DNA of 64,000 bases, from contig NZ_CP045119.1 in the NCBI RefSeq assembly GCF_011492945.1, forward strand, positions 2,046,001 through 2,110,000, written 5' to 3'. The notes beneath the pieces are model-generated. The model ran no database searches, was not told where the DNA came from, and saw nothing but the letters and a program-made list of their open reading frames with translations. This document shows, in pieces, positions 14,155-33,912 of the stretch (its first letter is position 1; every line of letters begins with the position of its first letter). The DNA comes from Rubrobacter tropicus (GTDB lineage: Bacteria > Actinomycetota > Rubrobacteria > Rubrobacterales > Rubrobacteraceae). A program made the translations under genes and the position numbers.

Positions 14155-15274
14155 GGAGGGAGAAGCGTACCTGTTTCTGTCCCTCTTGCAGGCCAGGGTC
14201 GGCGGTAGTCTGGTCTCGCGCCTCGCGGGCGGGCGCGTAAAGGACGTTCTCGAGAAGCCCGCGGCCCGGATCTCGCGCGAGATGAACCTGACCGAGAGGG
14301 CCGCCCGCGCCCTTGCCGAGATGAGGCAGACCTTCGAGGCCCGAGCCCTCCTGGGACGGCTGGGACACGCGGGAGTCCAGACAATAACGCTGGCCGACGA
14401 GGCGTATCCGGCGCGCTTGAGGGTCGCCCCGGATCCGCCGCCGGCCCTCTTCGTTCGAGGCCGACTGGCGCCGGAGGCCCTGGTGGCGCTCGTGGGTTCG
14501 CGTAAGGCGACGCCGGCCGGGGTCGAGATGGCGCGCTCGCTCGGGCGGGAGCTCGCGGCTAGGGGCGTCTGCGTGGTGAGCGGGCTGGCGCTCGGGGTCG
14601 ACGCGGCGGCCCACGAGGGCGCCCTTGAGGCAGGGGGCGAAACGATGGGCGTGCTCGGCTGCGGTATCGACGTCGTTTACCCGAGGGCCAACAGGGGTCT
14701 GTTCCGGCGCGTGGAGGAACGCGGGGCGCTCGTCTCCGAGTACGCTCCGGGGGAGGCGCCGCTCGCGTGGCGGTTCCCGGCACGTAACAGGATCATCGCC
14801 GGCCTCTCCGACGCGGTCGTGGTCGTCGAGGCGCCGGAGAAGAGCGGCGCCCTCATCACGGCGCGCCACGCGCTGGACGCCGGAAGGGACGTCTGGGCCG
14901 TGCCGGGGCCTCCCGGCGTGCCCGAGTGCCGCGGCTCGAACAGGCTGCTGGCCGACGGCGCGGGAGTGCTGTGGGACTTGCCGGAGTTCCTCGATGCCGT
15001 TGCGGGCCGGGCCGGGGATAAACCGCCGCCCGGCCCGGCACCCGAGGAGCCTGCCGCTCCAGAGCCCGCGCTACCCGACCCGCCGATAGGGTTGCCGGAG
15101 GAAGAGGCCGGGGTGTTGCGGGGGGTGGATTTTCGGTCCGTGGGGGCAGACGTGGTGGCAGGCCGGACGGGGGTGGAAATGAAAGTCGTGCTAAGCGCGC
15201 TCGCCATGCTGGAGATCAAGGGTTACGTGGCCCGCGACGCGGCGGGCAACTTCGCGCGGCGGTCGGCCTCGTGA
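14141..15274 (+). CDS. dprA: DNA-processing protein DprA
   Basis: This 377-residue protein binds incoming single-stranded DNA and loads RecA during transformation. The Rossmann-type domain includes ALVGSRKATPAGVEMARSL, CVVSGLALGVDAAAHEGAL, GVLGCGIDVVYPRANR, FPARNRIIAGLSDAVVVVEA and SGALITARHALDAGRDVWAVPG. A Pro-rich linker (residues ~290-315) leads to a C-terminal winged-helix (DVVAGRTGVEMKVVLSALAMLEIKG). The GTG start lies inside the end of comM. The gene ends in a 4-bp overlap with the sigma gene, so the three should be co-expressed. Confidence 0.94.
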   Translation: MPEVREGEAYLFLSLLQARVGGSLVSRLAGGRVKDVLEKPAARISREMNLTERAARALAEMRQTFEARALLGRLGHAGVQTITLADEAYPARLRVAPDPPPALFVRGRLAPEALVALVGSRKATPAGVEMARSLGRELAARGVCVVSGLALGVDAAAHEGALEAGGETMGVLGCGIDVVYPRANRGLFRRVEERGALVSEYAPGEAPLAWRFPARNRIIAGLSDAVVVVEAPEKSGALITARHALDAGRDVWAVPGPPGVPECRGSNRLLADGAGVLWDLPEFLDAVAGRAGDKPPPGPAPEEPAAPEPALPDPPIGLPEEEAGVLRGVDFRSVGADVVAGRTGVEMKVVLSALAMLEIKGYVARDAAGNFARRSAS

Positions 15275-16110
15275 CGCGGCAGAACCTTGGGTCCCTGTGG
15301 GCGCGGTACCGAAGGGTAAGGGAGCGGGCGGCGGGGATTGCCTGTCCCACCGAGCGGCGGCTCGTGGACCGCGAGGCCACGATGCTGCGGGACAGGCTCG
15401 TCGTCAACTACTCGCCGCTCGCGCGGTACGTGGCCGGCAGGATCTTCGCCCGGTCACCCGGGCCCGTCGACCGGGAAGACCTCGTCTCGTGGGGGTTGTT
15501 CGGGCTGCTCGGGGCCGTCGAGACCTACGATCCGTCCAGGCCTGCCAAGTTCGAGACCTACGCCATATCCAAGATCCGGTGGTCCATCCTCGACGAGCTG
15601 CGAAAGACCGACCCGCTCCCACGCACTACCCGGCTGCGCGTCCAGCGGGTGGAGCGCGCCCGTTGCGAGCTCGCGCAATGCTACGGCAGGTCGCCGACGG
15701 AGTCCGAGGTCGCTGTGAGGTTGGGCGTATCGATAGCTGACCACCGGGCTTTTCTGGAGAAGGTCGCGAGGTCGAGGGTCGGGTCGCTGGAGGCGCGTTC
15801 CGGCTGTGATCCCGCCGAGGGCGGGCTGCACGAGCTCGTGGCCGACCAGTTCGGGGCCGACCCTGCGCAGTCCGTCGAGAGTTCGGAGCTCAGGTCCCTT
15901 CTCGTCCGCGCTATAGAGGGGCTGGGCGAGCAAGAGCGGGTGGTCACGACCTTCTACTACTACGAGGGCCTGACGCTGCGCGAGATCGGCGGCGCCCTCG
16001 GCCTGACGGAGGGCAGGATCTCCCAGATACTCCGGGCCTCCCGCCTGAGGCTCCGCGAGGCCCTCCTGGAGATGGCGAGTTTTCCGGAGAGCCTTTCGGT
16101 GGATTCGTAG
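15271..16110 (+). CDS. whiG: FliA/WhiG-type RNA polymerase sigma factor
   Basis: This 279-residue sigma-70 family protein has regions 2, 3 and 4 but no region 1. Region 2 is DREDLVSWGLFGLLGAVETYDPSRPAKFETYAISKIRWSI (about residues 65-110), and region 4 is EGLTLREIGGALGLTEGRISQILRASR (about 230-260). DELRKTDPLPR after region 2 and the lack of an actinobacterial SigF N-terminus fit the FliA/WhiG group. In Streptomyces whiG is also close to dprA and rpsB. From memory, WhiG of Rubrobacter radiotolerans is controlled by a cyclic-di-GMP-bound RsiG anti-sigma and governs type IV pili; no RsiG gene is seen here. The GTG start overlaps the dprA stop. Confidence 0.85.
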   Translation: MTRQNLGSLWARYRRVRERAAGIACPTERRLVDREATMLRDRLVVNYSPLARYVAGRIFARSPGPVDREDLVSWGLFGLLGAVETYDPSRPAKFETYAISKIRWSILDELRKTDPLPRTTRLRVQRVERARCELAQCYGRSPTESEVAVRLGVSIADHRAFLEKVARSRVGSLEARSGCDPAEGGLHELVADQFGADPAQSVESSELRSLLVRAIEGLGEQERVVTTFYYYEGLTLREIGGALGLTEGRISQILRASRLRLREALLEMASFPESLSVDS

Positions 16111-18035: not shown

Positions 18036-18064
18036 TTGTTTCTTTCAGCCTGGCCGTATACAAT
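18036..18064 (+). promoter_or_regulatory. Promoter of the riboswitch-sigma-pilin unit
   Basis: TTGTTT (18036-18041) and TACAAT (18059-18064) are separated by 17 bp. The transcript would start a few bases before the cyclic-di-GMP aptamer, which fits a riboswitch leader. Confidence 0.6.
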
Positions 18065-18069
18065 GCTCC

Positions 18070-18148
18070 GGTTACGAAAAGGCAAACCCGCCGCGAGGCG
18101 GGGGCGCAAAGCCACGGGCCTCACGTAGGCAGCCGGGTTGCCGAAAAG
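18070..18148 (+). ncRNA. Cyclic-di-GMP-I riboswitch (GEMM-I) 1
   Basis: The aptamer core is directly readable: GGCAAACC (from 18081), a stem capped by the GNRA tetraloop GCGA, GGCGCAAAGCCACGGGCC, a short second arm, then TAGGCAGCCGGGTTGCC ending near 18142. These match the conserved GEMM-I joints, tetraloop and tetraloop receptor of the class I cyclic-di-GMP riboswitch. It sits between a promoter and a sigma factor gene, followed by minor pilin genes. Whether binding turns expression on or off is not clear from sequence. Confidence 0.93.
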
Positions 18149-18177
18149 GGAGATTCGATGCGGATTACTACTCGTCC

Positions 18178-18200
18178 GGCCGGTTACGCGAGTACCGGCC
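18178..18200 (+). promoter_or_regulatory. Hairpin in the expression platform of riboswitch 1
   Basis: GGCCGGT and ACCGGCC form a perfect 7-bp stem around a 9-base loop, 30 bases after the aptamer and 28 bases before the sigma start codon. A strong T run is missing (TTGCCC follows), so it could be a weak terminator or a block to ribosome access. Confidence 0.45.
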
Positions 18201-18228
18201 TTGCCCGTGCGGCGGTTCGTGCTGTGGC

Positions 18229-18984
18229 ATGGGGTCGATGAGGATGGTGGCGGGCGCCGCGGAACGGGGTCGGCAAGACGCGGCGGCCCTGATCCGGACC
18301 CACAGAGAGACCGGGGACAGGAAGGCCATAGAAACGATACTAGATATGCACGGGGGGCTAGTCGCCCACCTTGCCGGGCGGCACGCAAGGGTTTCGGACG
18401 AGGCCTACGAGGACCTGATACAGGTCGCCCACGTGGGGCTCATGAAGGCCGTAAAGAACTACGAAGACGCCCCGGGCGCGGGGTTCGCGACCTACGCTTA
18501 CGCCGTGGTGGACGGTGAGATCCGCCACCACCTCCGCGACACCCAGCTCGTAAAGAAACCCCGCTGGTCGCGCGGCCTCTACTCCAAAGTCACCTCGGCG
18601 GCGGCGCGGCTCGAAGCAGACCTCGGCCGCAGGCCCGAACTCGAAGAGATAGCCGAAGAGGTCAACGTCTCGCCAGACGGCATCGTCGAGTTGATGAAGC
18701 TCTACCACGACACGAGCGTCGTCTCGCTCGACGGCGCCGAGGAAGAGGGCATTGACCTCTCGGCCATCAGGAGCATCCACCACGAGAGTTTCTCTCTCCC
18801 GATAGAGGACCGCATCGTGCTGGAGCAGGCCATAGAGTCGTTGAGCGAGATCCAACGCAGAGTCGTCTACCTGTTCTTCTACAAGGACCTAACGCAGACG
18901 GAGGTCGGAAAACGGCTCGGGCTCTCGCAGCGAAAGGTGTCGCGGCTCGTCGCTTCTTCTGTGAAGTCGCTGAGAACGCTCTGA
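18229..18984 (+). CDS. SigF/SigB-type alternative sigma factor under riboswitch control
   Basis: This 251-residue sigma-70 family protein has region 2 (YEDLIQVAHVGLMKAVKNYEDAPGAGFATYAYAVVDGEIRHHLRD), region 3 (LEADLGRRPELEEIAEEVNVSPDGIVELM) and region 4 (KDLTQTEVGKRLGLSQRKVSRLVASSVKSL). The region 2 wording resembles the SigB/SigF/SigG group more than WhiG. Three in-frame ATGs (18229, 18238, 18244) are possible; I took the first, and the 5' end is uncertain. No anti-sigma gene is adjacent. Only 12 bp separate it from the first minor pilin gene, so a single RNA beginning with the cyclic-di-GMP riboswitch probably encodes both. Its target promoters are unknown. Confidence 0.88.
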   Translation: MGSMRMVAGAAERGRQDAAALIRTHRETGDRKAIETILDMHGGLVAHLAGRHARVSDEAYEDLIQVAHVGLMKAVKNYEDAPGAGFATYAYAVVDGEIRHHLRDTQLVKKPRWSRGLYSKVTSAAARLEADLGRRPELEEIAEEVNVSPDGIVELMKLYHDTSVVSLDGAEEEGIDLSAIRSIHHESFSLPIEDRIVLEQAIESLSEIQRRVVYLFFYKDLTQTEVGKRLGLSQRKVSRLVASSVKSLRTL

Positions 18985-18996
18985 AGCGGTGGATTG

Positions 18997-19578
18997 ATGG
19001 AGTCGAGCAGCTGGCGCCTTGATGACAGTGGCCGCCCGGTGGGCGAGTGGGGATTCACGCTGCCGGAGGTTGTAATCACCATCGTCGTCCTGGGTGTCCT
19101 TATGGGCATCGCCAGCTCTACCTGGTTCAGCGTGATAGAGAGCAGGGCCGTGGACTCCGCAGCCAACCAGTTGGCGTCTGATCTGCGGCTCGCCCATACC
19201 AGGTCCACCAACCAGTTGGCGAACTGGCGCGTCGTCCTCTCGCCCGAGAAAGCCAAGGAGAGCATGGGCCCCGACTACTATCTGGTAAAGATGACGAGCT
19301 CGGGCGGCGTTGCCGCGGGCACCGCCATAGATCGCACCCTGCCGGACAATACAAAGGTCGTGGGTGTGCCGGCGCTCCAGGACGATGCCGCCGTCACCAC
19401 CTTATACTCGACCCTGGGATTATCCGGGCCCACCCGATCGCTGGAGTTCTCTCCGGACGGGTCGATGCGAAACGTGACGGTCGGCGCCGGATCCAACGAG
19501 ATCCGGGTGACGGTAGATGGCAACCCTACGACTAGACTAGAGTTCGTAGATGTGACCTCGAGGATAAAGGTTGACTAG
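18997..19578 (+). CDS. Type IV minor pilin, GspH/FimT-like
   Basis: This 193-residue protein has a polar leader ending in Gly, then FTLPEVVITIVVLGVLMGIASSTWFSVIES, the class III pilin signal and transmembrane alpha helix with Glu5 present. PilD would cut before the Phe. The downstream half is a beta-rich pseudopilin domain (ANQLASDLRLAHTRSTNQ...) of the GspH/FimT kind. A TTG one codon earlier is an alternative start. It is the first of four tightly spaced minor pilin genes. Confidence 0.85.
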   Translation: MESSSWRLDDSGRPVGEWGFTLPEVVITIVVLGVLMGIASSTWFSVIESRAVDSAANQLASDLRLAHTRSTNQLANWRVVLSPEKAKESMGPDYYLVKMTSSGGVAAGTAIDRTLPDNTKVVGVPALQDDAAVTTLYSTLGLSGPTRSLEFSPDGSMRNVTVGAGSNEIRVTVDGNPTTRLEFVDVTSRIKVD

Positions 19579-20005
19579 ATTTCTCAAGGGCGAATCCGGC
19601 TACTCGCTGGTCGAGGTGATGGTGGCAATCATGATCCTCGCCGTCGCGATCATACCGATGGTTAGCATGTTCGACGCGGGCCTCAACGCGGCCGTCGCGG
19701 GGAGCAACTACGATCAGGCGCGGGCGCTCGCGAACGAGAAGCTGGAGGAAACCAAGGCTCTGACCCTTCCGGCCGCGCTTGCCCGTTACCCGGTGGGAAG
19801 CTCCACCGACTGCAACCCCGCGCCTCCCGCAGGCTCTCCTTTCGCGTCTCCGTCGGGTGGCTGCGAAGTGACGACCCAGTACATGCGCCTCGGTCCATCC
19901 GCCGTAGAGCCTGCCGGTTACCAGACGAACCTGATCCAGGTCAGCGTGACCGTGGATTGGGCGTCCGGTGGTAATTACGAGGTCACGGGGTTGGTCGCCA
20001 AGTGA
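19571..20005 (+). CDS. Type IV minor pilin, PilV-like
   Basis: This 144-residue protein begins MTRFLKGESGYSLVEVMVAIMILAVAIIPMVSMFDAG: a short basic leader, Gly-Tyr cleavage site, Glu at position 5 and a hydrophobic helix. The PilV-type stretch NYDQARALANEKLEETKAL follows. Two Cys residues near the middle may form a disulfide outside the cell. The TTG start overlaps the previous gene by 8 bp. Minor pilins of this kind prime pilus assembly. Confidence 0.85.
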   Translation: MTRFLKGESGYSLVEVMVAIMILAVAIIPMVSMFDAGLNAAVAGSNYDQARALANEKLEETKALTLPAALARYPVGSSTDCNPAPPAGSPFASPSGGCEVTTQYMRLGPSAVEPAGYQTNLIQVSVTVDWASGGNYEVTGLVAK

Positions 20006-20640
20006 AGTGCCTCAAGGTGAAGGTGCGGCGGTCACTCGCGGAGGAGGACGGATTCACCCTCACGGAGTTAATGGTAACGATCCTGTTGATGTCTGTTGCT
20101 ATGGGTGCCCTCTACTCCGTCTTCGACATGAGCTTGCGGGTGTTCAGCTTCGGTAACGACAAGACCGAGGCGGTAGAAAACGCCCGGCTGGGGCTGGAGC
20201 GGATGGAGCGCGAGATCCGGACCGCCTACCCGTACAACAAGCTCGACGGGGTCAGCACCAACGACAATCTCCTCGGTGGTTACTCACCCTCGAGTGCGGT
20301 GACGCCGAACCCTTCACCCTCGATCACCTTCTTCAACGACCTGAACGGCAACCACGCAGAAGATCCTTCGGAGCGCGTGACTTATGGCTTGAACGGGGAT
20401 TCTCCTCCAGCGCTCCTGCGCAATGGTAAGCCTCTGGTCGAGTTCGTCAGGCCCGGCGGGCTCAGCTTTACGTTCTGCGAGAGCGTGGATAGCTGCGATC
20501 CCGCGTCTCCTCCGTCCATAACCGAGGGACAGATGAAGCTGGTGCACATAGAACTCAGGGTCCAGGTGGACCGCGGGATCTCCGGGCCGGCCACTCAGAC
20601 CCTTGCTACCGACGTAAAATTGAGGAACCGGCTCAGATGA
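20002..20640 (+). CDS. Type IV minor pilin, PilW-like
   Basis: This 212-residue prepilin has the leader ...SLAEEDG followed by FTLTELMVTILLMSVAMGALYSVFDMSLRVF with Glu5. NARLGLERMEREIRTAYP is characteristic of PilW/GspJ-like minor pilins. Two Cys residues lie in FCESVDSCDP. The GTG start overlaps the previous stop by 4 bp, and its own stop overlaps the next ATG by 4 bp, so the order FimT-PilV-PilW-PilX is strongly coupled. Confidence 0.85.
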   Translation: MKCLKVKVRRSLAEEDGFTLTELMVTILLMSVAMGALYSVFDMSLRVFSFGNDKTEAVENARLGLERMEREIRTAYPYNKLDGVSTNDNLLGGYSPSSAVTPNPSPSITFFNDLNGNHAEDPSERVTYGLNGDSPPALLRNGKPLVEFVRPGGLSFTFCESVDSCDPASPPSITEGQMKLVHIELRVQVDRGISGPATQTLATDVKLRNRLR

Positions 20641-22160
20641 AGGCGCGAAGTTTGAAGAGAGGCGAGGCCGGAATCGCCCTGCCCATGGCCATCTTCGTGA
20701 TGGTGATAGTCGGAGTGATGGGAGCGGGGCTTCTGGTCTTCGTGCGCAACGACCTAGAGACCGTAGTGGAAGTGAACCGGGGGCAGCGCGCGCTGGAGAT
20801 AGCGGAGGCCGGCGTAATGGCCGCGAAGCAGCAACAACTCTCCGACGTGGTGCGCCAACATTACGATAACGATTACACGAACGACTGCTCTCCGGGCCGG
20901 CGGATCGGGGCGGATTGGTCTCCTTCGGCGACCGTGTGGGCGGATCCGAGCACCTGTTCCGGTGCCACCGTAACGCGCCAGCCAGGGGTTAGCCGGGAGT
21001 TCGGAGGTGGACGATTCAACGTGACCATCCGGTGCTTCGATCAGCTCAACGATCCGGTCTCCGACCCGTGCGGCGGCGTGGATGAGGACGCTCCCGTTAG
21101 CGTCGAGGCCGGGAAGCGGTCTTACTTCAAGATAACCTCCACCGGCTATTACCCGGCCGACGGCACGGGAGCGGTCCGCACGGTGCAGGCGATATTCCAT
21201 ACGAACCGCCTAGACGTGCCGACGGCCTACTACACGCCACAAACGATACGGTTTAACGGCAACGTAGACCTGAGCGGTGTCAGCTTCTTCGCCGGAGAAG
21301 ATATCGTTCTCGGGAATGCCGACCTTGCGAACGGGCCCGCCGATCCCGCGGCCTTGTATAGGGACTGGGATACCACCAACCCGCTCAACTTCACTCCGAC
21401 TTCCAACCTCAACACCTCGCCGCGGCGCACGGCGCCAGATCCGGCCTCGCCCAGAGTAGACAAGGCCGGGCTTGGCGCAGAGGGACTTATCTGCAACAGC
21501 GCGGGTAATTGCGATGGTCCCTCCGACAGTGTCGCCGACGGAATAAACAACTACGACTCCACGACGGCGACCAGGGGCTCGCAGCAGAGGTTCGTCAGAA
21601 AGTTGCCGGACGACCTGGACGACCCCAACCCGGCAAAGACGATCTCCCATCCATTTGACCCGTACGCGGAGTTCGACCTGACCTCGCTGGAGCAGATCGC
21701 CCGAAGCCAGTGCGTCGGAGGCGCGTGCAACTACTACGAGGGTTCCGTGAATATCGACGACAGCCCGACTTCCGGTAGCGACGTGCAGTATCCCGAGAAC
21801 TCGACCGATCAGACCGTGTTCTACGTGGACGCTAAAGGCGGAGACGTCACCTATACCGCGAGCTTTCCCTCCGGGCCTGGCAAGGGACTGATCGTTGTAG
21901 AAAACGGAGACCTCGATATCAGGAACAGCTCCAACGGGTTTGACGGCGTGATCATCGTAACGGGAAACGGCACGACGACCGGGAGCTACACCAACAGCGG
22001 CAACAGGACCGTCAAGGGTTTCGTCATCGCCGAGAACGAGATGACGATCGGCGGGACCGTAGACCCGTTCTCCGTAGTCGGCGAGTTCAGCCAGCGCGCC
22101 GGCTTCTACAACATGAGGCAGTGGAGCTGGCGCGAGTGCTACAGCGTAGGCTGCACCTAG
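20637..22160 (+). CDS. PilX-like large minor pilin / tip protein
   Basis: This 507-residue protein has a basic start and an N-terminal membrane helix (GIALPMAIFVMVIVGVMGAGLLVFVRNDLETVVEVNRGQRALEIAEAGV) as in PilX-type proteins, but no canonical Glu5 prepilin signal. The rest is a long extracellular domain rich in Asn, Asp, Gly and Thr, with several Cys residues and repeated hydrophobic strands (GLIVVENGDLDIRNSSNGFDGVIIV) suggesting a beta-solenoid-like fold. Large PilX-type proteins often sit at the pilus tip; adhesion is inference only. It ends the minor pilin cluster. Confidence 0.75.
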   Translation: MKARSLKRGEAGIALPMAIFVMVIVGVMGAGLLVFVRNDLETVVEVNRGQRALEIAEAGVMAAKQQQLSDVVRQHYDNDYTNDCSPGRRIGADWSPSATVWADPSTCSGATVTRQPGVSREFGGGRFNVTIRCFDQLNDPVSDPCGGVDEDAPVSVEAGKRSYFKITSTGYYPADGTGAVRTVQAIFHTNRLDVPTAYYTPQTIRFNGNVDLSGVSFFAGEDIVLGNADLANGPADPAALYRDWDTTNPLNFTPTSNLNTSPRRTAPDPASPRVDKAGLGAEGLICNSAGNCDGPSDSVADGINNYDSTTATRGSQQRFVRKLPDDLDDPNPAKTISHPFDPYAEFDLTSLEQIARSQCVGGACNYYEGSVNIDDSPTSGSDVQYPENSTDQTVFYVDAKGGDVTYTASFPSGPGKGLIVVENGDLDIRNSSNGFDGVIIVTGNGTTTGSYTNSGNRTVKGFVIAENEMTIGGTVDPFSVVGEFSQRAGFYNMRQWSWRECYSVGCT

Positions 22161-22293: not shown

Positions 22294-22722
22294 ATGCTGC
22301 GCTGGTTTGGCAAGAGGTTGCGAGAGATGCAGGAGGTGCCCCGTGACGAGCGCGGCTTTACCCTCATCGAGCTCCTAGTCGTGGTGATCATCATCGGTAT
22401 ACTGGCGGCCATCGCCATACCGGCCTTTCTCGCCCAGAGGGAGCGAGCCCAAGTAGCCAACCTCGAGAGTGATTTGCGGAATGCTGGTACTGCCTTCACC
22501 CAGTGCATAACGGAGACAAGTACCTTTGCCAGCTGTGACGAGCAGGATGAGCTTGAGGGCTACGGCTACAACAAGAGCGCGGACGTCACCTTTGGTGGCG
22601 TTACAGGGAACGCCGATGCTGGGGTGATCACCGCCAGCCACGTCGACAACACCGATGTCGACGGCAACTTCAACAGTGGCACCGGACAGGTTACCGTCAA
22701 CAGCGACGCACCTACTCCGTAA
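22294..22722 (+). CDS. pilA: Type IV major pilin (PilA-like)
   Basis: This 142-residue prepilin has an 18-20 residue leader ending ...RDERG, then FTLIELLVVVIIIGILAAIA, the canonical type IVa N-terminus with Glu5. The processed protein of about 120 residues includes two Cys (TQCITE and FASCDE) likely to form a disulfide. AAAGGAGAA precedes the ATG at 22294. The 130-bp upstream gap and the terminator after the gene suggest that it is a separate, highly expressed unit. It is the most canonical prepilin in the cluster, hence the major subunit assignment. Confidence 0.9.
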   Translation: MLRWFGKRLREMQEVPRDERGFTLIELLVVVIIIGILAAIAIPAFLAQRERAQVANLESDLRNAGTAFTQCITETSTFASCDEQDELEGYGYNKSADVTFGGVTGNADAGVITASHVDNTDVDGNFNSGTGQVTVNSDAPTP

Positions 22723-23333: not shown

Positions 23334-23412
23334 GCGGACAAAGGCAAACCTGCCGCGAGGCAGGGACGCAAAGCCACGGGTCTCGCGAGAGCAGATAGCC
23401 GGGTTGCCGACG
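23334..23412 (+). ncRNA. Cyclic-di-GMP-I riboswitch (GEMM-I) 2
   Basis: The aptamer starts AAAGGCAAACC (23340s), has a CCTGCC-GCGA-GGCAGG stem with a GNRA loop, GGACGCAAAGCCACGGG, a short CTCGCGAG arm, and ATAGCCGGGTTGCCG ending near 23410. It closely resembles riboswitch 1 and the GEMM-I consensus. It precedes the response regulator/GGDEF-EAL/kinase operon. A CTCCCG/CGGGAG hairpin at 23476-23497 could be part of its expression platform. About 165 bases of leader separate it from the first gene. Confidence 0.92.
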
Positions 23413-23579
23413 ATGTGGGCTGATTCGCCAGCGACTCTGATCACCCTCTCGCCTATCCGAATCGCAGTTTATGGTCTCCCGGGCCAAGGGTCGGGAGTAG
23501 CTAGACAGGAACGCTCCGGGATCTCGGGGCGGTTGCGCGCACGTCGGCCGATGGGTCGAGAAGGGTGGTCTCAACCGAA

Positions 23580-24026
23580 ATGCCCAATACGGAACCCATC
23601 GAGATCCTGCTGGTCGAGGACAACCTGGGGGATGCGCGGCTGGCGCGGGAGGCGCTGAAGGAGAGCAAGGTCCGGAATAACCTGCACCACGTCGCTGACG
23701 GGGTGGAGGCAATGCGGTTCTTGCGGAGGCGGGAGGGGTATGCCGGCGTGTCTTTGCCGGACTTGATCCTGCTCGACCTGAACATGCCGCGCAAGGACGG
23801 CCGCGAGGTGCTCGCGGAGATCAAGGAGGACCCTCAGCTGCGTCTGATCCCGGTGGTGGTTCTGACTACGTCCGAGGCGGAGCGGGATCTTATCAAGAGC
23901 TACGACTTGCACGCCAACGCCTACGTCGTGAAGCCCATTGATCTGGACCGGTTTATCGAGATCGTGCGGGCCATAGAGCACTTCTGGTTCTCGGTCGTGA
24001 AGCTGCCGCAGGGGAACGGTGGCTAG
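23580..24026 (+). CDS. CheY/Rcp1-like response regulator
   Basis: This 148-residue stand-alone receiver has the acidic pair in [13 protein letters not shown], the phospho-acceptor Asp in [15 protein letters not shown], the Thr switch in [10 protein letters not shown] and the conserved Lys in AYVVKPIDL. The loop GYAGVSLPD before the acceptor strand is typical of Rcp1-type regulators paired with phytochrome-like or PAS/GAF kinases. ATG at 23580 is chosen; a GTG at 23565 lies closer to a GAGAAGG stretch and is possible. It overlaps the next receiver gene by 8 bp and is downstream of riboswitch 2. Confidence 0.9.
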
Positions 24027-25760
24027 CGAAACCAACGGGGCGCGGCGGGAGACCGTCGGCGTGCTGCTGGTCGAGGACAACCCCGGCGACGCGCGGCTGG
24101 TGGAGATTATGCTCTCCGAGCCCGGCCTGATGTGGGACTTCGAGATAAGCCACACGGCCCGGCTCGGGGACGCCGTCGAGGAGCTCGAACGGTCGGAGTT
24201 CGACGTGGTGCTGCTCGACCTCTCGCTGCCCGACTCCCAGGGGATGGAGACGGTGGAGAGGGTGCGGACGGTGGCGTCGCGGACGCCTGTAGTCGTGCTC
24301 AGCGGCCGGGACGACGAGGAGATAGCGCTTCTGGCCCTCCAGGGCGGGGCCGAGGACTATCTGGTGAAGGGGCGGGGGACGGGGAGCTCGTCGCCCGGTC
24401 GATCCGGTACGCGATCCAGCGCAAAAAGGCCGAGGAGAGGCTGGCCTACCTCGCCCAGTACGACCCGCTGACGGGCCTCGCCAACCGCGCCCTGTTCCAG
24501 GACCGCCTCCAGCAGGCCGTGGCCCGCGCGGAGAGGTCGGGGGTGCCGCTCGCGCTGGTGTTCGTGGACCTGGACCGCTTCAAGGCCGTCAACGACACTT
24601 TCGGGCACGACTGCGGGGACGCGTTGCTCCGGGAGGTGGCAAGGCGCATCAGGGACCGCGTCCGCGAGAGCGACACCGTGGCCCGCCTGGGCGGCGACGA
24701 GTTCGCCCTTATCCTCGAGAACCTCTCCGAAGCGGAGGACGCCGCGCGCGTGGCCCAGGACGTGCAGAGGCGCCTGCTGGAGCCGGTCCTCCTCGCCGGG
24801 GACCAGATACCGGTGTCGGCGAGCATGGGCATAGCGTTGTGGCCGGCTTCCGGGAGGGAGAGGTTGCTAAAGGACGCCGATGCCGCCATGTACCGGGCCA
24901 AGCGCCAGGGAGGCAACGGGCACCGGTTCTACACCGAGGAGATGAACGCCCAGGCGACGGCCCGCCTGACGCTGGAGAGGGACCTGCGACGGGCCCTCCA
25001 GGACGAACAGTTCGTACTGTACTACCAGCCCCAGGTAGACCTCTCGACGGGCAGGATAGTGGGTGCCGAGGCCCTCCTGCGCTGGCGGCACGTCGAACGG
25101 GGGCTCGTGTCGCCGGGCGAGTTTATCCCCATCCTGGAAGAGTCGCGCCTCATAAATTCCGTGGGCCGGTGGGTGCTCGGCTCGGCGTGCCGGCAGGGCA
25201 GGGCGTGGCGGGAGGCGGGGCTGCCGCCCCTGCGCGTCTCCGTCAACCTCTCCGCGCGCCAGTTCGGCCGCAGGGACCTCGCGGACGACATAGCCGGGGC
25301 GCTCGCCGAGGGCGGGATGGAGCAGGAGAACCTGGAGCTCGAGATAACCGAGAGCCTGCTCATGGAGGACCCGGAGACCGCGCTCGCGACCCTCGGGAGG
25401 CTCAGGACGGAGCTCGGGGGAGTCGGAATCTCGATAGACGACTTCGGCACCGGCTACTCCTCGCTCTACCGCCTCAAGGCGCTGCCCGTGCAGCGGATCA
25501 AGATCGACCGCTCCTTTATCCGGGGCGTACCGGAGGACCGCGAGGACGCGGCGATCACGGCCGCCGTGATCGGGCTGGCCCACGACCTCAGCCTCAGGGT
25601 GGTCGCGGAGGGCGTCGAGACGGCGGAGCAACTCGCCTTCTTGCGCGCCCACGGCTGCGACGAGGCCCAGGGCTTCTTTTTCGGGAGGCCGGTTCCGGCG
25701 GAAGAGTTCGCCGCGTTACTGGCAGGGAATGGCCCCGGCGCGAAGGACCGCCCACGATGA
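24019..25760 (+). pseudogene. Receiver-GGDEF-EAL cyclic-di-GMP enzyme, one reading-frame break
   Basis: Read across one missing base, this would be a ~580-residue protein that makes and/or degrades cyclic-di-GMP. The receiver (LLVEDNPGDARL, LLDLSLPDSQG, EDYLVKG) is in one frame to about 24371; then the frame must slip in a G run (24374-24378). The GGDEF domain is intact, with the active site RLGGDEFAL and a product-inhibition RxxD (RESD) five residues before it. The EAL domain is also intact: EALLRWRH, ELEITESLL, DDFGTGYSS, KIDRSFI, EGVET. Both catalytic sites look functional. GTG at 24019 is the start. The break may be an assembly indel, a real mutation, or -1 frameshifting. Confidence 0.8.
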
Positions 25761-29054: not shown

Positions 29055-30134
29055 TTACAACCCCAGCGATTGGACCATCAGCTTGAAGTCCTGGGGGCGG
29101 CTGGCGGCGGTCAGGCCGTCCTGGTAGGAGATGCGGTCTTCTTCCACGAGCTTCAGGAGGGCCTGGTCGAAGGTCTGCATCCCGTAGTACTCGCCCTCGG
29201 AGATTGCTTCCTGGATCTGGCCGGTCTGGAGCGGGTCCATTATGAAGTCCTGGATGCGCCCGGTCGTTACCATTACTTCGCACGCGGCGACCCTACCGCC
29301 GTTTTTGGTTCTGAGCAGGCGCTGGCCTATGATGCCCTTGAGGGTGCCGGCGAGCATGGTACGGACCTGGCCCCGCTCGTGGGGCGGGAAGAGGTCGATC
29401 ATGCGGTTTATGGTCTCGGTCGCGTCGACCGTGTGGAGGGTGGAGAGGACGAGGTGGCCGGTCTCGGCTGCGGAGAGGGCGATCTGGGCCGTCTCGGCGT
29501 CCCGGATCTCGCCGATCTGGATGATGTCGGGGTCCTGGCGAAGCACCCGCCTGAGCGCCCTGGCGAAGGAGAGGGTGTCCGTGCCGACCTCCCGCTGGTT
29601 TATGATGCTCTTCTCGTCGCGGTGCATGAACTCTATCGGGTCCTCGATGGTGACGATGTGCTTGCGGGAGGAGCGGTTGACGAGGTCGATCATCGAGGCG
29701 AGGGTCGTCGACTTGCCGCTGCCGGTGGTGCCGGTTACGAGGATGATGCCGCGTTCCTCCATGGCGAGGCGCCGGATCACGTCCGGCAGATCCAGATCCT
29801 CGAACTTCGGGACCCCGAAGGGGATGAACCGCATTACTATCGAGACGGACCCGCGCTGCTTGAACGCGTTTACCCTGAACCTGCCGACACCGGGCACGGA
29901 GTAGGAGAAGTCCGCCTCCCCGTCCCGCTCGAACTCCTCGACGAGCCCGGGGGGGATGATGCTGTTGAGCATCTGGGCCGTGTCCTCGGGCCCGAGCCTC
30001 TCCTGGCCCTCGACGGGCGTTAGCAGGCCGCGCACCCGGACCATCGGCTCTATGCCGACCTTGAGGTGCAGGTCGCTGCCGCCCATCCCGGTCAACCGGC
30101 CTACGAGCGTGTCGACGCTTGCGCTGTCTATCAT
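29055..30134 (-). CDS. pilT: Type IV pilus retraction ATPase PilT
   Basis: This 359-residue hexameric ATPase depolymerises pili. It has no long N-terminal domain; motifs are Walker A GTTGSGKSTT (near residue 135), the Asp box IVTIEDPIEF, Walker B IIQIGEIRD, the His box GHLVLSTLHTVDA and the PilT-type AGTLKGIIGQRLL. The start at 30134 has GAGGAGAC upstream on the reverse strand. It is divergent from pilB with 185 bp between. A second pilT-like gene lies at 32791; this copy may have a distinct role. Confidence 0.9.
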   Translation of the reverse strand: MIDSASVDTLVGRLTGMGGSDLHLKVGIEPMVRVRGLLTPVEGQERLGPEDTAQMLNSIIPPGLVEEFERDGEADFSYSVPGVGRFRVNAFKQRGSVSIVMRFIPFGVPKFEDLDLPDVIRRLAMEERGIILVTGTTGSGKSTTLASMIDLVNRSSRKHIVTIEDPIEFMHRDEKSIINQREVGTDTLSFARALRRVLRQDPDIIQIGEIRDAETAQIALSAAETGHLVLSTLHTVDATETINRMIDLFPPHERGQVRTMLAGTLKGIIGQRLLRTKNGGRVAACEVMVTTGRIQDFIMDPLQTGQIQEAISEGEYYGMQTFDQALLKLVEEDRISYQDGLTAASRPQDFKLMVQSLGL

Positions 30135-30319
30135 TCTCGGTGTCTCCTCGTACCCGTGTCTCCAAACACGAAGCCTCTCGGGCTCAAGTATGCCAGCGGA
30201 GGCGGGTCGATGCCCATACAGTTCGCGGCGCGTGGGGTGTTGTACACTTCCGGACGGAGGGGGCGCTCCCGGTCCGGACCCTCCGGCCTCCGCGATGGCC
30301 CGCATGAGTAGGAGAGATC

Positions 30320-32758
30320 GTGTTCGGTTGGAACACATCCACCAAGATCAATAAGAAGGGCGCGGAGGGCGCGACCCCGACGAAGGCGGCCGTGGCCGGC
30401 GGGGCGCTTCCCGTCTCCGACAAGATCGGAGAGATCCTCTTGTCCGAGGGCACCGTTACCCGCGAGCAGATCGACCTGGCGCTCACCATGCAGCGTAACG
30501 ACCCCCGAAGACTCGGGGAGATACTTCTTTCGCTGGGTTACGTCACGGCGGAAGACCTCGGACGGGCGGTCGCGCGGGACCAGAAGCTCGAGTTCGTGGA
30601 GATCCGGGAGCTCCCCCCGGACGCAGTGGATCCCGACGCCATTAACCTCCTGGATGAAGGCATACTCCGCAAGCACAAGGCCCTGCCGTTGCGGTTCGAG
30701 AACGGGCACGTAGTCGTCGCCATGGCCGACCCTACCGACCTCTACGCCGTCGAGGACTTGAGGCTGCTCGCCGGCCACGCCGTTCGTCCCGTGGTCGTCA
30801 CCGAGGAAGACCTGAACGGTGCCTTCCTCCACCTCTTCGGCGGTGTAGAGTCTCCGTCAGGTCCGGACGAGTACCCGGAGGACGAGGAGGGGCCGCTTGA
30901 CGACCCTTACCCGGGCGCCGGGAACGGCGGAGCCGTCGAGGAGGCCGTCGTCGAAGCGCCAATGGAGCCTGTCGAACCGGAGCCGGCCGCGGAGATAGAG
31001 CCGGAAGAGCTCGTTCTGGGGCAAGAGGGGGAAATCGAAGAGGCGGCGAGGTCCGGTTCTCAGGTCCATGCGGGGACCGTCGGGGGTAGGATCGGCGACA
31101 TCCTGGTTGCGGCGGGGGATATCATGCCGGAGCAGCTCGAGGAGGCGCTCGCGCTCCAGCGCGAAGACCGGAGGGAGATCGGGCAGATCCTGCTCTCTTT
31201 GGGCTACGTCGGCAAGGCCGTCCTCGCCCGGGCGCTGGCGGCGAGGTTGCGCCTGGAGTACGTCGAGATCACCGAGCGCGACGTGGACCGCGCGGCCACG
31301 AGCCTCGTCGACCCGCGGGTGCTTCGCAAGTACGGGGCGATGCCGATGAGGGTGGAGGGCGGCCGGCTGGTTGTCGCCATGAGCGAGCCCAACAACTTCT
31401 ACGCGCTCGAGGACATCAGGATGATCTCGGGCTACCCCATCACCCCCGTCGTCGCCGTGGACGACGACATAAGACGGGTCCAGAACAAAGTGTTCGCGAT
31501 GAGCGCCGAGGTCTCGGAACTGCTGGAAGAGGCGCCCGGAAGCCAGACCGCAGAGGACGTGGGCGAGCTCGAGCTCGGCAACGAAAGCGCCGAGAACGCG
31601 CCCATCGTGCGCCTCGTGAGTTCGATTCTGCAGCAGGCCGTCGGGGAGGAGGCCTCGGACATCCACATAGAGCCGCGCGCCAGGGCGCTAACGGTTAGGA
31701 TGAGGGTGGACGGCGTGCTCCGCGAGGTGATGAGCGTGCCCCCGCGGCTCCAGAACGGCGTGGTCGCCCGCATCAAGATCCTCGCCAACCTCAACATCGC
31801 CGAGCGGAGGGTCCCCCAGGACGGCCGCTTCTCGGTGCGGCTAGGGGAGCAGAAGGTCGACCTCAGGGCAGCGTCCCTGCCTACCGTCTTCGGCGAGAAG
31901 ATCGTGCTGCGACTGCTCAACACGTCGAGCATCGACGTTGACCTGAAAGCGCTGGGCTTCGCCCCCGGGGCGCTCGCGCAGTACCGCGAAATCTTCCAGA
32001 AACCGTACGGCACGATCCTGGTGACGGGACCTACCGGCAGCGGCAAGTCGACCACCCTCTACGCGACGCTCGGCGAGCTCAATTCTCCGGAGAAGAACAT
32101 CATCACCGTCGAGGACCCGGTCGAGTACAGGATGCCAGGCGTGAACCAGATCCAGGTAAACCCCGGCGTCGGCCTGACCTTCGCCTCGGGCCTGCGTAGC
32201 ATCCTCCGCTCGGACCCGGACGTGCTCATGATTGGTGAGATAAGGGACCGCGAGACGGCCAAGATCAGCGTAGAGGCGGCCCTCACCGGACACCTCGTCC
32301 TCGCCACCCTCCACACGAACGACGCGCCCGCCGCCGTCACCCGCCTTACGGACATGGGCGTCGAGCCGTTCCTGACGGCCTCGGCCGTCGACTGCGTCAT
32401 CGCCCAGCGCCTCGCCCGCAGGCTCTGCGAGAGGTGCAAGCGGCCCACAGAGGTGGACGAGGAAACGCTCTCCCGGGTGCGGTTCCCATTCAAACACGCC
32501 CCCGAGGACGCCCTGGATTTCCACGAGGCAGTGGGGTGCGACCGTTGCGGTGGCACGGGGTACAGGGGGCGAATGGGCATCTACGAGATGCTGGTAATCA
32601 CGGACGAGATTAAAGAGCTGGTGCTCGGGCGCGTCTCGACCGGGGAGGTCAGCCGGGTGGCCGAGGGTAAGGGCATGGTACGCCTGCGGGAGGACGGCCT
32701 GATCAAGGCCGCCAGGGGCGAGACCACCATCGAAGAGGTCCTGAGAACAGTGGTATAG
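30320..32758 (+). CDS. pilB: Type IV pilus extension ATPase PilB with two MshEN domains
   Basis: This 812-residue ATPase drives pilus polymerisation. Two MshEN (GspE N-terminal) modules precede the motor. Module 1 (about residues 34-180) has KIGEILLSEG...Q then RLGEILLSLG...Q; module 2 (about 255-405) has RIGDILVAAG...Q then EIGQILLSLG, with Arg where the last Gln is expected. They are joined by an acidic linker. MshEN modules in related ATPases bind cyclic-di-GMP. The motor shows GPTGSGKSTT (near 570), the Asp box ITVEDPVEYRMPGVNQ, Walker B LMIGEIRD, and a zinc tetracysteine (CERCKR and CDRCGG). GTG at 30320 follows TAGGAGAG. It heads pilB-pilT2-pilC. Confidence 0.93.
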   Translation: MFGWNTSTKINKKGAEGATPTKAAVAGGALPVSDKIGEILLSEGTVTREQIDLALTMQRNDPRRLGEILLSLGYVTAEDLGRAVARDQKLEFVEIRELPPDAVDPDAINLLDEGILRKHKALPLRFENGHVVVAMADPTDLYAVEDLRLLAGHAVRPVVVTEEDLNGAFLHLFGGVESPSGPDEYPEDEEGPLDDPYPGAGNGGAVEEAVVEAPMEPVEPEPAAEIEPEELVLGQEGEIEEAARSGSQVHAGTVGGRIGDILVAAGDIMPEQLEEALALQREDRREIGQILLSLGYVGKAVLARALAARLRLEYVEITERDVDRAATSLVDPRVLRKYGAMPMRVEGGRLVVAMSEPNNFYALEDIRMISGYPITPVVAVDDDIRRVQNKVFAMSAEVSELLEEAPGSQTAEDVGELELGNESAENAPIVRLVSSILQQAVGEEASDIHIEPRARALTVRMRVDGVLREVMSVPPRLQNGVVARIKILANLNIAERRVPQDGRFSVRLGEQKVDLRAASLPTVFGEKIVLRLLNTSSIDVDLKALGFAPGALAQYREIFQKPYGTILVTGPTGSGKSTTLYATLGELNSPEKNIITVEDPVEYRMPGVNQIQVNPGVGLTFASGLRSILRSDPDVLMIGEIRDRETAKISVEAALTGHLVLATLHTNDAPAAVTRLTDMGVEPFLTASAVDCVIAQRLARRLCERCKRPTEVDEETLSRVRFPFKHAPEDALDFHEAVGCDRCGGTGYRGRMGIYEMLVITDEIKELVLGRVSTGEVSRVAEGKGMVRLREDGLIKAARGETTIEEVLRTVV

Positions 32759-32790: not shown

Positions 32791-33912
32791 ATGATACAGA
32801 CGGGGCTCAACGACTACCTTTTCGACGCGATCCGGATGGGGGCGAGCGACCTCCATATAACTGCGGGTCTGCCCCCGATGGTGCGCCTGAGCGGCAAGGT
32901 GCAGGCGCTCGATTATGAGCCCTTCACCCCGAACGCGACCCGGGAGATGGTCTACGACATCCTCTCAAGCGACCAGCGCCAGCGCCTGGAGAACGAGTGG
33001 GAGCTGGACTTCTCCTACACGCTGCCGCGCACGGCCCGCTTCAGGGTGAACGTCTACTTCCAGAAGGGCGCCATCGGGGCCGCCTTCAGGACCATCCCGC
33101 ACGAGATAAAGACCCTGGGAGAGCTCGGGCTGCCGAAGGCCGTCGAGGACATGACGGAGAGGCCGCGGGGGCTCGTCCTTGTAACGGGGCCGACGGGGAG
33201 CGGCAAATCGACGACGCTCGCGTCCATGATCGACAGGATCAACGAGACCAGAAGCGAGCACATAATGAGCGTGGAGGACCCGATAGAGTTCCTCCACGCC
33301 CACAAGAAGTGCATAGTCAACCAGCGCGAGGTAAACCAGGACACCAAGAGCTTCGCCCAGGCGCTCAAGCACGTCCTGCGCCAGGACCCCGACGTGATCC
33401 TCGTCGGCGAGATGCGCGACCTGGAGACGATCTCGCTCGCCGTAACCGCCGCCGAGACCGGCCACCTCGTCTTCGGTACTCTCCACACCCAGGACGCACC
33501 CCAGACGGTCGACCGCATCATAGACGTTTTCCCGTCCCACCAGCAGTCCCAGATCAGAACCCAGCTCGCAAACGCCCTGCAGGGCGTCATCACCCAGACG
33601 CTCGTGCCCCGGCGCGGGGGCGAGGGGAGGGTCGCCGCCTGCGAGGTGCTCGTCCCGACGCCGGGCGTCAGGAACCTCATAAGGGAGGGGAAGAACCACC
33701 AGATCTACTCGGCCATGCAGACCGGCGGCAAGTTCGGGATGCAGACGATGGACGCCGCCCTCGTCGACCTGTTGCGCCGGAACCTGATCTCCCGCGAAGA
33801 GGCCGAGAAGCGGGCCTCGAACCCCGAGGAGTTGCGCCGTCTGGCCGGCGGCAGCTCCCTGGGCGCGAACTCGAAATCGAGCGCCGGCGGCTACGCGGCG
33901 TTCAGGAAGTAG
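32791..33912 (+). CDS. pilT: Type IV pilus retraction ATPase PilT (second copy)
   Basis: This 373-residue PilT paralogue has MGASDLHITAGLPPMVRLSGKV at the N-terminus, Walker A GPTGSGKSTT, IMSVEDPIEF, Walker B VILVGEMRD, the His box GHLVFGTLHTQDA and the PilT end ANALQGVITQTLVPR. The C-terminal tail rich in Ser and Gly is non-conserved. ATG at 32791 follows GGAGGAC. It lies 32 bp after pilB and 6 bp before pilC, the textbook pilB-pilT-pilC order, so this is the more canonical of the two copies. Confidence 0.94.
   Translation: MIQTGLNDYLFDAIRMGASDLHITAGLPPMVRLSGKVQALDYEPFTPNATREMVYDILSSDQRQRLENEWELDFSYTLPRTARFRVNVYFQKGAIGAAFRTIPHEIKTLGELGLPKAVEDMTERPRGLVLVTGPTGSGKSTTLASMIDRINETRSEHIMSVEDPIEFLHAHKKCIVNQREVNQDTKSFAQALKHVLRQDPDVILVGEMRDLETISLAVTAAETGHLVFGTLHTQDAPQTVDRIIDVFPSHQQSQIRTQLANALQGVITQTLVPRRGGEGRVAACEVLVPTPGVRNLIREGKNHQIYSAMQTGGKFGMQTMDAALVDLLRRNLISREEAEKRASNPEELRRLAGGSSLGANSKSSAGGYAAFRK

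Follow-up and report, generated by a model that had tools for sequence, protein, structure and literature searches.

The window, i.e. the whole 64-kb stretch of DNA analysed, carries a type IV pilus locus in which a sigma factor gene and a row of minor pilin genes lie behind a promoter, a riboswitch aptamer and a short leader ORF. A second aptamer, genes for c-di-GMP turnover, pilB and a gene for WhiG are found in the same region, and the features discussed below are as follows, with the basis of each assignment in brackets:

15271–16110 (+), neighbouring gene for WhiG, the c-di-GMP/RsiG-controlled sigma factor (PDB, NCBIfam)
18036–18064 (+), SigA-like promoter, TTGTTT - 17 nt - TACAAT (read from the sequence)
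18072–18146 (+), c-di-GMP-I-GGC riboswitch aptamer, RF03167 (cmscan against Rfam)
18146–18153 (+), Shine-Dalgarno (SD) sequence AAAGGGAG adjoining the 3' end of the aptamer (sequence)
18158–18241 (+), leader ORF of 27 codons, MRITTRPAGYASTGLARAAVRAVAWGR (sequence)
18178–18200 (+), 7-bp hairpin GGCCGGT/ACCGGCC inside the leader ORF (sequence)
18238–18984 (+), sigma factor gene of the SigB/SigF/SigG group in the type IV pilus cluster (Pfam, TIGR02980, PDB)
18997–19578 (+), GspH/N_methyl minor pilin (Pfam PF12019, PF07963)
19571–20005 (+), minor pilin, overlapping the preceding gene (Pfam PF07963)
20002–20640 (+), minor pilin, overlapping the preceding gene (Pfam PF07963)
20637–22160 (+), PilX-like large pilus-cluster protein, overlapping the preceding gene (sequence and position)
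22294–22722 (+), probable major pilin, GFTLIELLVV (Pfam PF07963, 39.2 bits)
23334–23412 (+), second c-di-GMP-I-GGC aptamer (cmscan, 68.9 bits, E 3.4e-14)
23565–25760 (+), response regulators and GGDEF-EAL genes for c-di-GMP turnover (Pfam, NCBIfam)
30320–32758 (+), PilB with MshEN c-di-GMP-binding domains (TIGR02538, NF053729, PF05157)

The sigma factor gene and its pilus setting

A start of the sigma gene at 18238 is favoured by the overlap of this ATG with the leader stop, 18229, 18244 and 18247 being alternatives. The product matches the Pfam models Sigma70_r2, r3 and r4 above their cut-offs, and its best NCBIfam model is TIGR02980 (168.3 bits, yet under the cut-off of 234), so that by profile it belongs with SigB/SigF/SigG as a related group and not as a certified TIGR02980 member. 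Its best PDB match is SigF (1l0o_C, 105 bits), with R. radiotolerans WhiG at 45 bits, and the FliA_WhiG model gives 115 bits against a cut-off of 189.6; being closer to SigF and below that cut-off, the protein was rejected as a WhiG. The SigF/SigB-type sigma gene that an earlier note on this DNA had read behind the aptamer is borne out by these matches.

Orthologues were found in 22 of 39 Rubrobacteraceae genomes, often located after pilC, and more distant homologues (37–45 %) in Thermoleophilia-type MAGs. Within the 39 genomes, pilB is present in 21 of the 22 sigma-positive vs 7 of the 17 sigma-negative ones (P 3e-4), and this distribution marks the gene as one of the conserved type IV pilus genes of Rubrobacteraceae. 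A role in pilus expression is plausible by analogy with SigF of Synechocystis PCC 6803, a SigB-like (SigB/F-type group 3) sigma factor linked to type IV pili, for which the available part of PMC2758279 reports direct pilA transcription; unlike at the window locus, direct pilA recognition has been shown there, and that part of the source describes no riboswitch. In Rubrobacter sp. MGR_bin253 (L050/L138), the sigma ORF runs in frame, with no stop, into a GspH-like minor pilin, which is either a true fusion or an assembly or sequence error.

The minor pilin cluster begins, as the earlier note had it, 12 bp after the sigma gene (stop at 18984, ATG at 18997), and the successive pilin genes overlap by 4–8 nt; a Pfam search with the 20637–22160 product gave no match. 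This overlapping or abutting order supports a single predicted operon behind the aptamer, comprising the sigma gene and four minor pilin genes.

Several further predicted c-di-GMP inputs converge on the pilus locus. The second aptamer is located around 150 nt ahead of the response-regulator and GGDEF-EAL genes and has no SD adjoining it. The product of the neighbouring whiG gene finds its best PDB match in R. radiotolerans WhiG (7lq4_A, 190.7 bits) and exceeds the FliA_WhiG cut-off, while a gene for RsiG, recognized by its motif and the solved structure, lies in the same genome around 9 kb past the window. PilB carries its MshEN domains, which are absent from the PilB of some relatives, in a long N-terminal part (NF053729, 102.7 bits vs a cut-off of 38). 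With these domains added to the second aptamer, WhiG-RsiG and the GGDEF-EAL operon, the putative inputs number four.

Promoter, aptamer and leader ORF

The -35 box TTGTTT (18036–18041) and the -10 box TACAAT (18059–18064) predict an RNA start at around 18070, i.e. transcription would begin at the first base of the aptamer. With 8/12 in generic consensus scoring, this promoter is absent from the list of a generic scan because it falls under the threshold of at least 9/12; that scan listed nothing on either strand between 17000 and 21000. The promoter that the earlier note had proposed ahead of the aptamer is thus in place, and a promoter between 18150 and 18229, which it had named as a possible bypass of the aptamer, was not found. 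Among the aptamers of the family, 28 of 67 have a TATAAT-like -10 box (at least 5/6) in the preceding 45 nt, mostly 13–16 nt ahead of the aptamer, compared with 0–5 of about 66 in offset controls.

An Rfam cmscan of the whole window, after removal of two overlapping weaker matches from the same clan, left the two aptamers listed above, both c-di-GMP-I-GGC. The earlier note had placed a GEMM-I aptamer at 18070–18148 and named the covariance-model search that could speak against it; the match at 18072–18146 covers the full model (positions 1–80 of 80) with 74.4 bits (E 8.5e-16), above the gathering score of 59. None of 14 control genomes had a c-di-GMP-I-family match in the same search, while the window's own genome (4.58 Mb) holds eight c-di-GMP-I elements, seven of them over the cut-off. 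A hand reading of the cmscan alignment, covering this one of the 127 aptamers examined, finds the contact residues for c-di-GMP present, at positions that we take to be the equivalents of Vc2 G20, A47 and C92. What the suffix GGC in the Rfam name stands for was not found in the literature searched. By fold and sequence, then, the aptamer ahead of the sigma gene is confirmed as a real c-di-GMP-I-class RNA element, with c-di-GMP as its putative ligand.

The SD abuts the aptamer, as in a translational riboswitch, and it serves the leader ORF, whose ATG at 18158 stands 11 nt past the aptamer, a spacing typical of the family. Across the family, an SD core lies within -4 to +8 of the aptamer end in 44 of 66 cases vs 17 % of control windows, and the start codon mostly follows SD-bearing aptamers at about +7 to +16. 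Considering this adjacency and spacing, it is the leader ORF, not the sigma gene, that stands where the regulated ORF would be expected. The earlier note's statement that the aptamer precedes the sigma gene therefore holds as far as the operon is concerned, while the immediate output is the leader ORF and not the sigma start. The leader stop (TGA, 18239–18241) overlaps the sigma ATG at 18238 as ATGA.

The arrangement recurs in one congener (G024, CADDZK010000188.1), in which an aptamer, a leader ORF, the sigma gene (64–65 % identity with that of the window), a pilin-type sequence, a second aptamer and a response regulator follow in this order. Only this congener and the window's own genome, one of the two being a MAG, have an aptamer upstream of the sigma gene among the 22 orthologue loci, so the idea of a standard aptamer on every orthologue was rejected. 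Correspondingly, this sigma gene follows 2 of the 127 actinobacterial aptamers examined, i.e. those of the window and of G024, in support of the rarity that the earlier note had ascribed to a riboswitch on a sigma gene. To our knowledge, sigma factor genes are rare riboswitch targets.

In G024, the leader ORF has 46 codons and stops just within the sigma gene, in a frame offset unlike that of the window; since the leader-to-sigma frames differ between the two species, the leaders are not a broken fusion, and a leader derived from a broken sigma N-terminus was rejected. The nine residues after the leader start (RITTRPAGY in the window, RTISRPRVY in G024) give a BLOSUM score of 19 (shuffle P 1e-4) over DNA that is identical at 16 of 30 bases, with scores of 0 and 4 in the other frames, a similarity that, coming from two sequences, is suggestive only. 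The leader/sigma overlap is compatible with chance under shuffling (P 0.72 and 0.27) and was rejected as statistical proof of coupling. In another relative (G007, L045/L132), the sigma gene ends around 1.1 kb ahead of a c-di-GMP-I aptamer of 57.7 bits, seen at about 3359–3441 of L045.

WhiG-type promoters and aptamers among relatives

In the R. radiotolerans system (PMC8325347), RsiG armed with c-di-GMP holds on to WhiG, and pilus and DGC/PDE genes are expressed from WhiG-type promoters (TAAA / GCCGATAA); the main text of that paper makes no mention of riboswitches. Promoters of this type, which in the relatives are consensus matches, lie upstream of 26 of 67 family aptamers at up to two mismatches, compared with a dinucleotide-shuffle mean of 0.54 (maximum 3) and none in offset controls. 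With spacers of 15–17 nt, they accompany 24 of 30 aptamers from the other Rubrobacteraceae genera vs 1 of 37 from the window's genus (g1; Fisher 1e-11), a comparison that samples higher-scoring aptamers from related, phylogenetically non-independent genomes and includes near-identical upstream regions (L096/L101/L115 and L107/L109). Within g1, SigA-like -10 boxes are found upstream of 26 of the 37 aptamers, and exact WhiG sites number 0–4 per g1 genome vs up to 37 in other genera. A changed DNA-contact helix of WhiG in g1 (DPLPRTTR vs DPLPRRER or DWVPRRVR) was considered and set aside as suggestive only.

Beyond the family, WhiG-type promoters accompany 27 of 60 aptamers from other actinobacterial families (shuffle mean 0.41). 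There, an aptamer precedes a type IV pilin gene in 18 of 58 cases (L228–L287), 15 of the 18 with a WhiG-type promoter. Other aptamer targets within the family include secreted hydrolases (GH16, GH26, GH5 and subtilase), RTX and beta-helix proteins, as well as signalling proteins such as a hybrid histidine kinase.

As for the sigma orthologues themselves, a WhiG-type promoter lies directly upstream in L041, L043, L050, L055, L057 and L059, and others have one kilobases upstream on the sense strand, at about 4.4–4.8 kb in the Thermoleophilia-type loci; for pilC-sigma operons, the search placed it several kilobases ahead or gave no match. The + strand of the window has no TAAA-N15/16-GCCGATAA promoter at up to two mismatches. 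Judged by a WhiG-type promoter upstream, the window sigma operon thus falls outside the WhiG-RsiG regulon, to which the operons of several relatives would belong.

A possible RNA switch on a pilus sigma factor

Our data suggest the following course of events. A housekeeping-type promoter would start an mRNA whose first 75 nt or so form a c-di-GMP-I-class aptamer; as the 3' edge of the aptamer abuts the leader SD, binding of c-di-GMP would change the access of the 30S subunit to it, i.e. control would be translational. Translation of the leader would be coupled through the ATGA overlap to that of a pilus-dedicated SigB/F-type sigma factor, and the coupling would extend to the minor pilin operon through its overlapping or closely spaced genes. 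We infer that an RNA may in this way gate a whole regulon. In most related genera, the sigma gene would be served by WhiG-type promoters and shut by c-di-GMP through the anti-sigma factor RsiG. In the window genome and one congener, it would have left WhiG control and gained c-di-GMP control by RNA, so that the ligand was kept and the regulatory layer changed from the WhiG-RsiG protein switch to an RNA switch. Taken as a whole, from aptamer-leader control over coupled sigma and pilin genes to the replacement of WhiG by RNA, this account seems to us moderately probable.

The most economical reading of the relatives is that a pilus sigma factor formerly in the WhiG-c-di-GMP circuit exchanged its WhiG promoter for one of SigA type together with a c-di-GMP riboswitch, a direction of change that is drawn from the distribution and not from a reconstructed tree. 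The same swap is the most economical account of the second aptamer at 23334–23412 with its GGDEF-EAL operon, DGC/PDE genes being the other class of WhiG targets besides pilus genes (PMC8325347). It is tempting to speculate, with somewhat less than even confidence, that an old actinobacterial two-layer logic placed WhiG promoters, closed by c-di-GMP via RsiG, and a c-di-GMP riboswitch on the same RNAs of pilin, surface and c-di-GMP-turnover genes, and that g1 dropped the WhiG layer and put the RNA layer on the pilus sigma factor, with the ligand unchanged.

The sign of the control is a guess that leans slightly towards repression by c-di-GMP; repression is weakly favoured because the SD sits at the edge of a short P1 and the co-occurrence with WhiG would make a double OFF coherent. 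An alternative fold in which aptamer strands bury the leader SD was seen for the window as well as for G024, the two folds being different, and such SD-hiding folds would make c-di-GMP an activator. Across the family, SD sequestration showed no excess over shuffled tails and was rejected as a family-wide rule.

The strongest competing explanation, though it has perhaps one chance in a few, keeps the aptamer in control of the sigma and pilin genes and leaves the leader ORF untranslated and without a role, the sigma gene starting somewhere within 18229–18247 with a weak SD of its own. The GGGG 3 nt ahead of 18238 and the GAGG ahead of 18247 would allow this, as would a leader/sigma overlap within chance, but the strong SD and ATG at family-typical spacing, and a peptide start that resembles that of G024 despite the 16/30 DNA identity, point to a translated leader. 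Rather less probable is transcription attenuation, by which the hairpin at 18178–18200 or a Rho-dependent site would stop the RNA before the sigma gene and the leader ORF would be incidental. The earlier note had suggested a platform hairpin here, and a stable 7-bp hairpin does lie between the aptamer and the sigma start; since it has no T-run and is absent from the terminator-like list of the terminator scan, an intrinsic terminator was rejected, and the hairpin proved to be located inside the leader ORF. Untranslated GC-rich leader RNA could be Rho-sensitive, yet the SD adjacency in 44 of 66 relatives favours translation, and in G024 the region after the aptamer folds differently.

Two further explanations concern the aptamer itself. 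That it is a GEMM-I variant for another cyclic dinucleotide, e.g. 3',3'-cGAMP, is improbable: natural GEMM-I variants of Geobacter are reported to sense cGAMP (PMC8835794), and the matched Rfam family is itself a variant (GGC), but the residues at the G20, A47 and C92 equivalents are as in c-di-GMP-I and the locus is rich in c-di-GMP enzymes and receptors. Least probable of all, and by our estimate very unlikely, is a chance or decayed insertion, i.e. an aptamer that arrived recently and has no regulatory role. Its presence ahead of the sigma gene in so few orthologue loci would fit such an origin; against it, the congener retains the two aptamers of the locus in spite of the modest sigma identity, the covariance-model scores are strong, and promoter and SD lie at family-typical positions.

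Several known systems come close to the one proposed here. In sequence, fold and contact residues, and in its place upstream of surface and c-di-GMP genes, the window aptamer resembles other c-di-GMP-I (GEMM-I, RF03167) elements; it differs from the usual ones by a target that is a sigma operon reached via a short leader ORF, by a minimal P1, by an RNA start predicted at the aptamer and by the abutting SD. With the Rubrobacter WhiG-RsiG switch (PMC8325347), it shares the organism family and what would be a sigma factor through which c-di-GMP governs type IV pilus and DGC/PDE genes; there, however, the sensor is an anti-sigma protein, whereas the putative sensor of the window is an RNA on a SigB/F-type sigma gene that has no WhiG-type promoter. 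In Clostridioides difficile, riboswitches likewise place surface genes and type IV pili under c-di-GMP at the RNA level (PMC6200980, PMC11477304), but differ in organism, platform and targets, and a sigma factor operon with minor pilins under such a riboswitch was not found in the literature searched. The wider circuit appears to be new, having no precedent in that literature, outside which most subscription journals lie.

If the account is true, one messenger would control an entire sigma regulon by way of an RNA, and close relatives would show a regulatory input swapped from an anti-sigma protein to an RNA with the signal unchanged. The frequent sharing of transcripts by WhiG-type promoters and c-di-GMP riboswitches in Actinobacteria is directly testable and could make them a model in which to study how a second messenger acts at two layers on biofilms and pili.

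Some minor observations concern paralogues. Besides PilT at 32791–33912, a PilT-family ATPase is encoded at 29055–30338 (-), and a second PilB (62 %) lies elsewhere in the window's genome (G000) at C1:2027193-2028788, with the PilB of the window following around 49 kb downstream; this points to a further type IV pilus system. A second WhiG-like paralogue (around 50 % identity) was seen at G000:C1:3970596-3971384 and G024:C144:87-851, the latter divergent from the sole aptamer of the genus that has a WhiG-type promoter.
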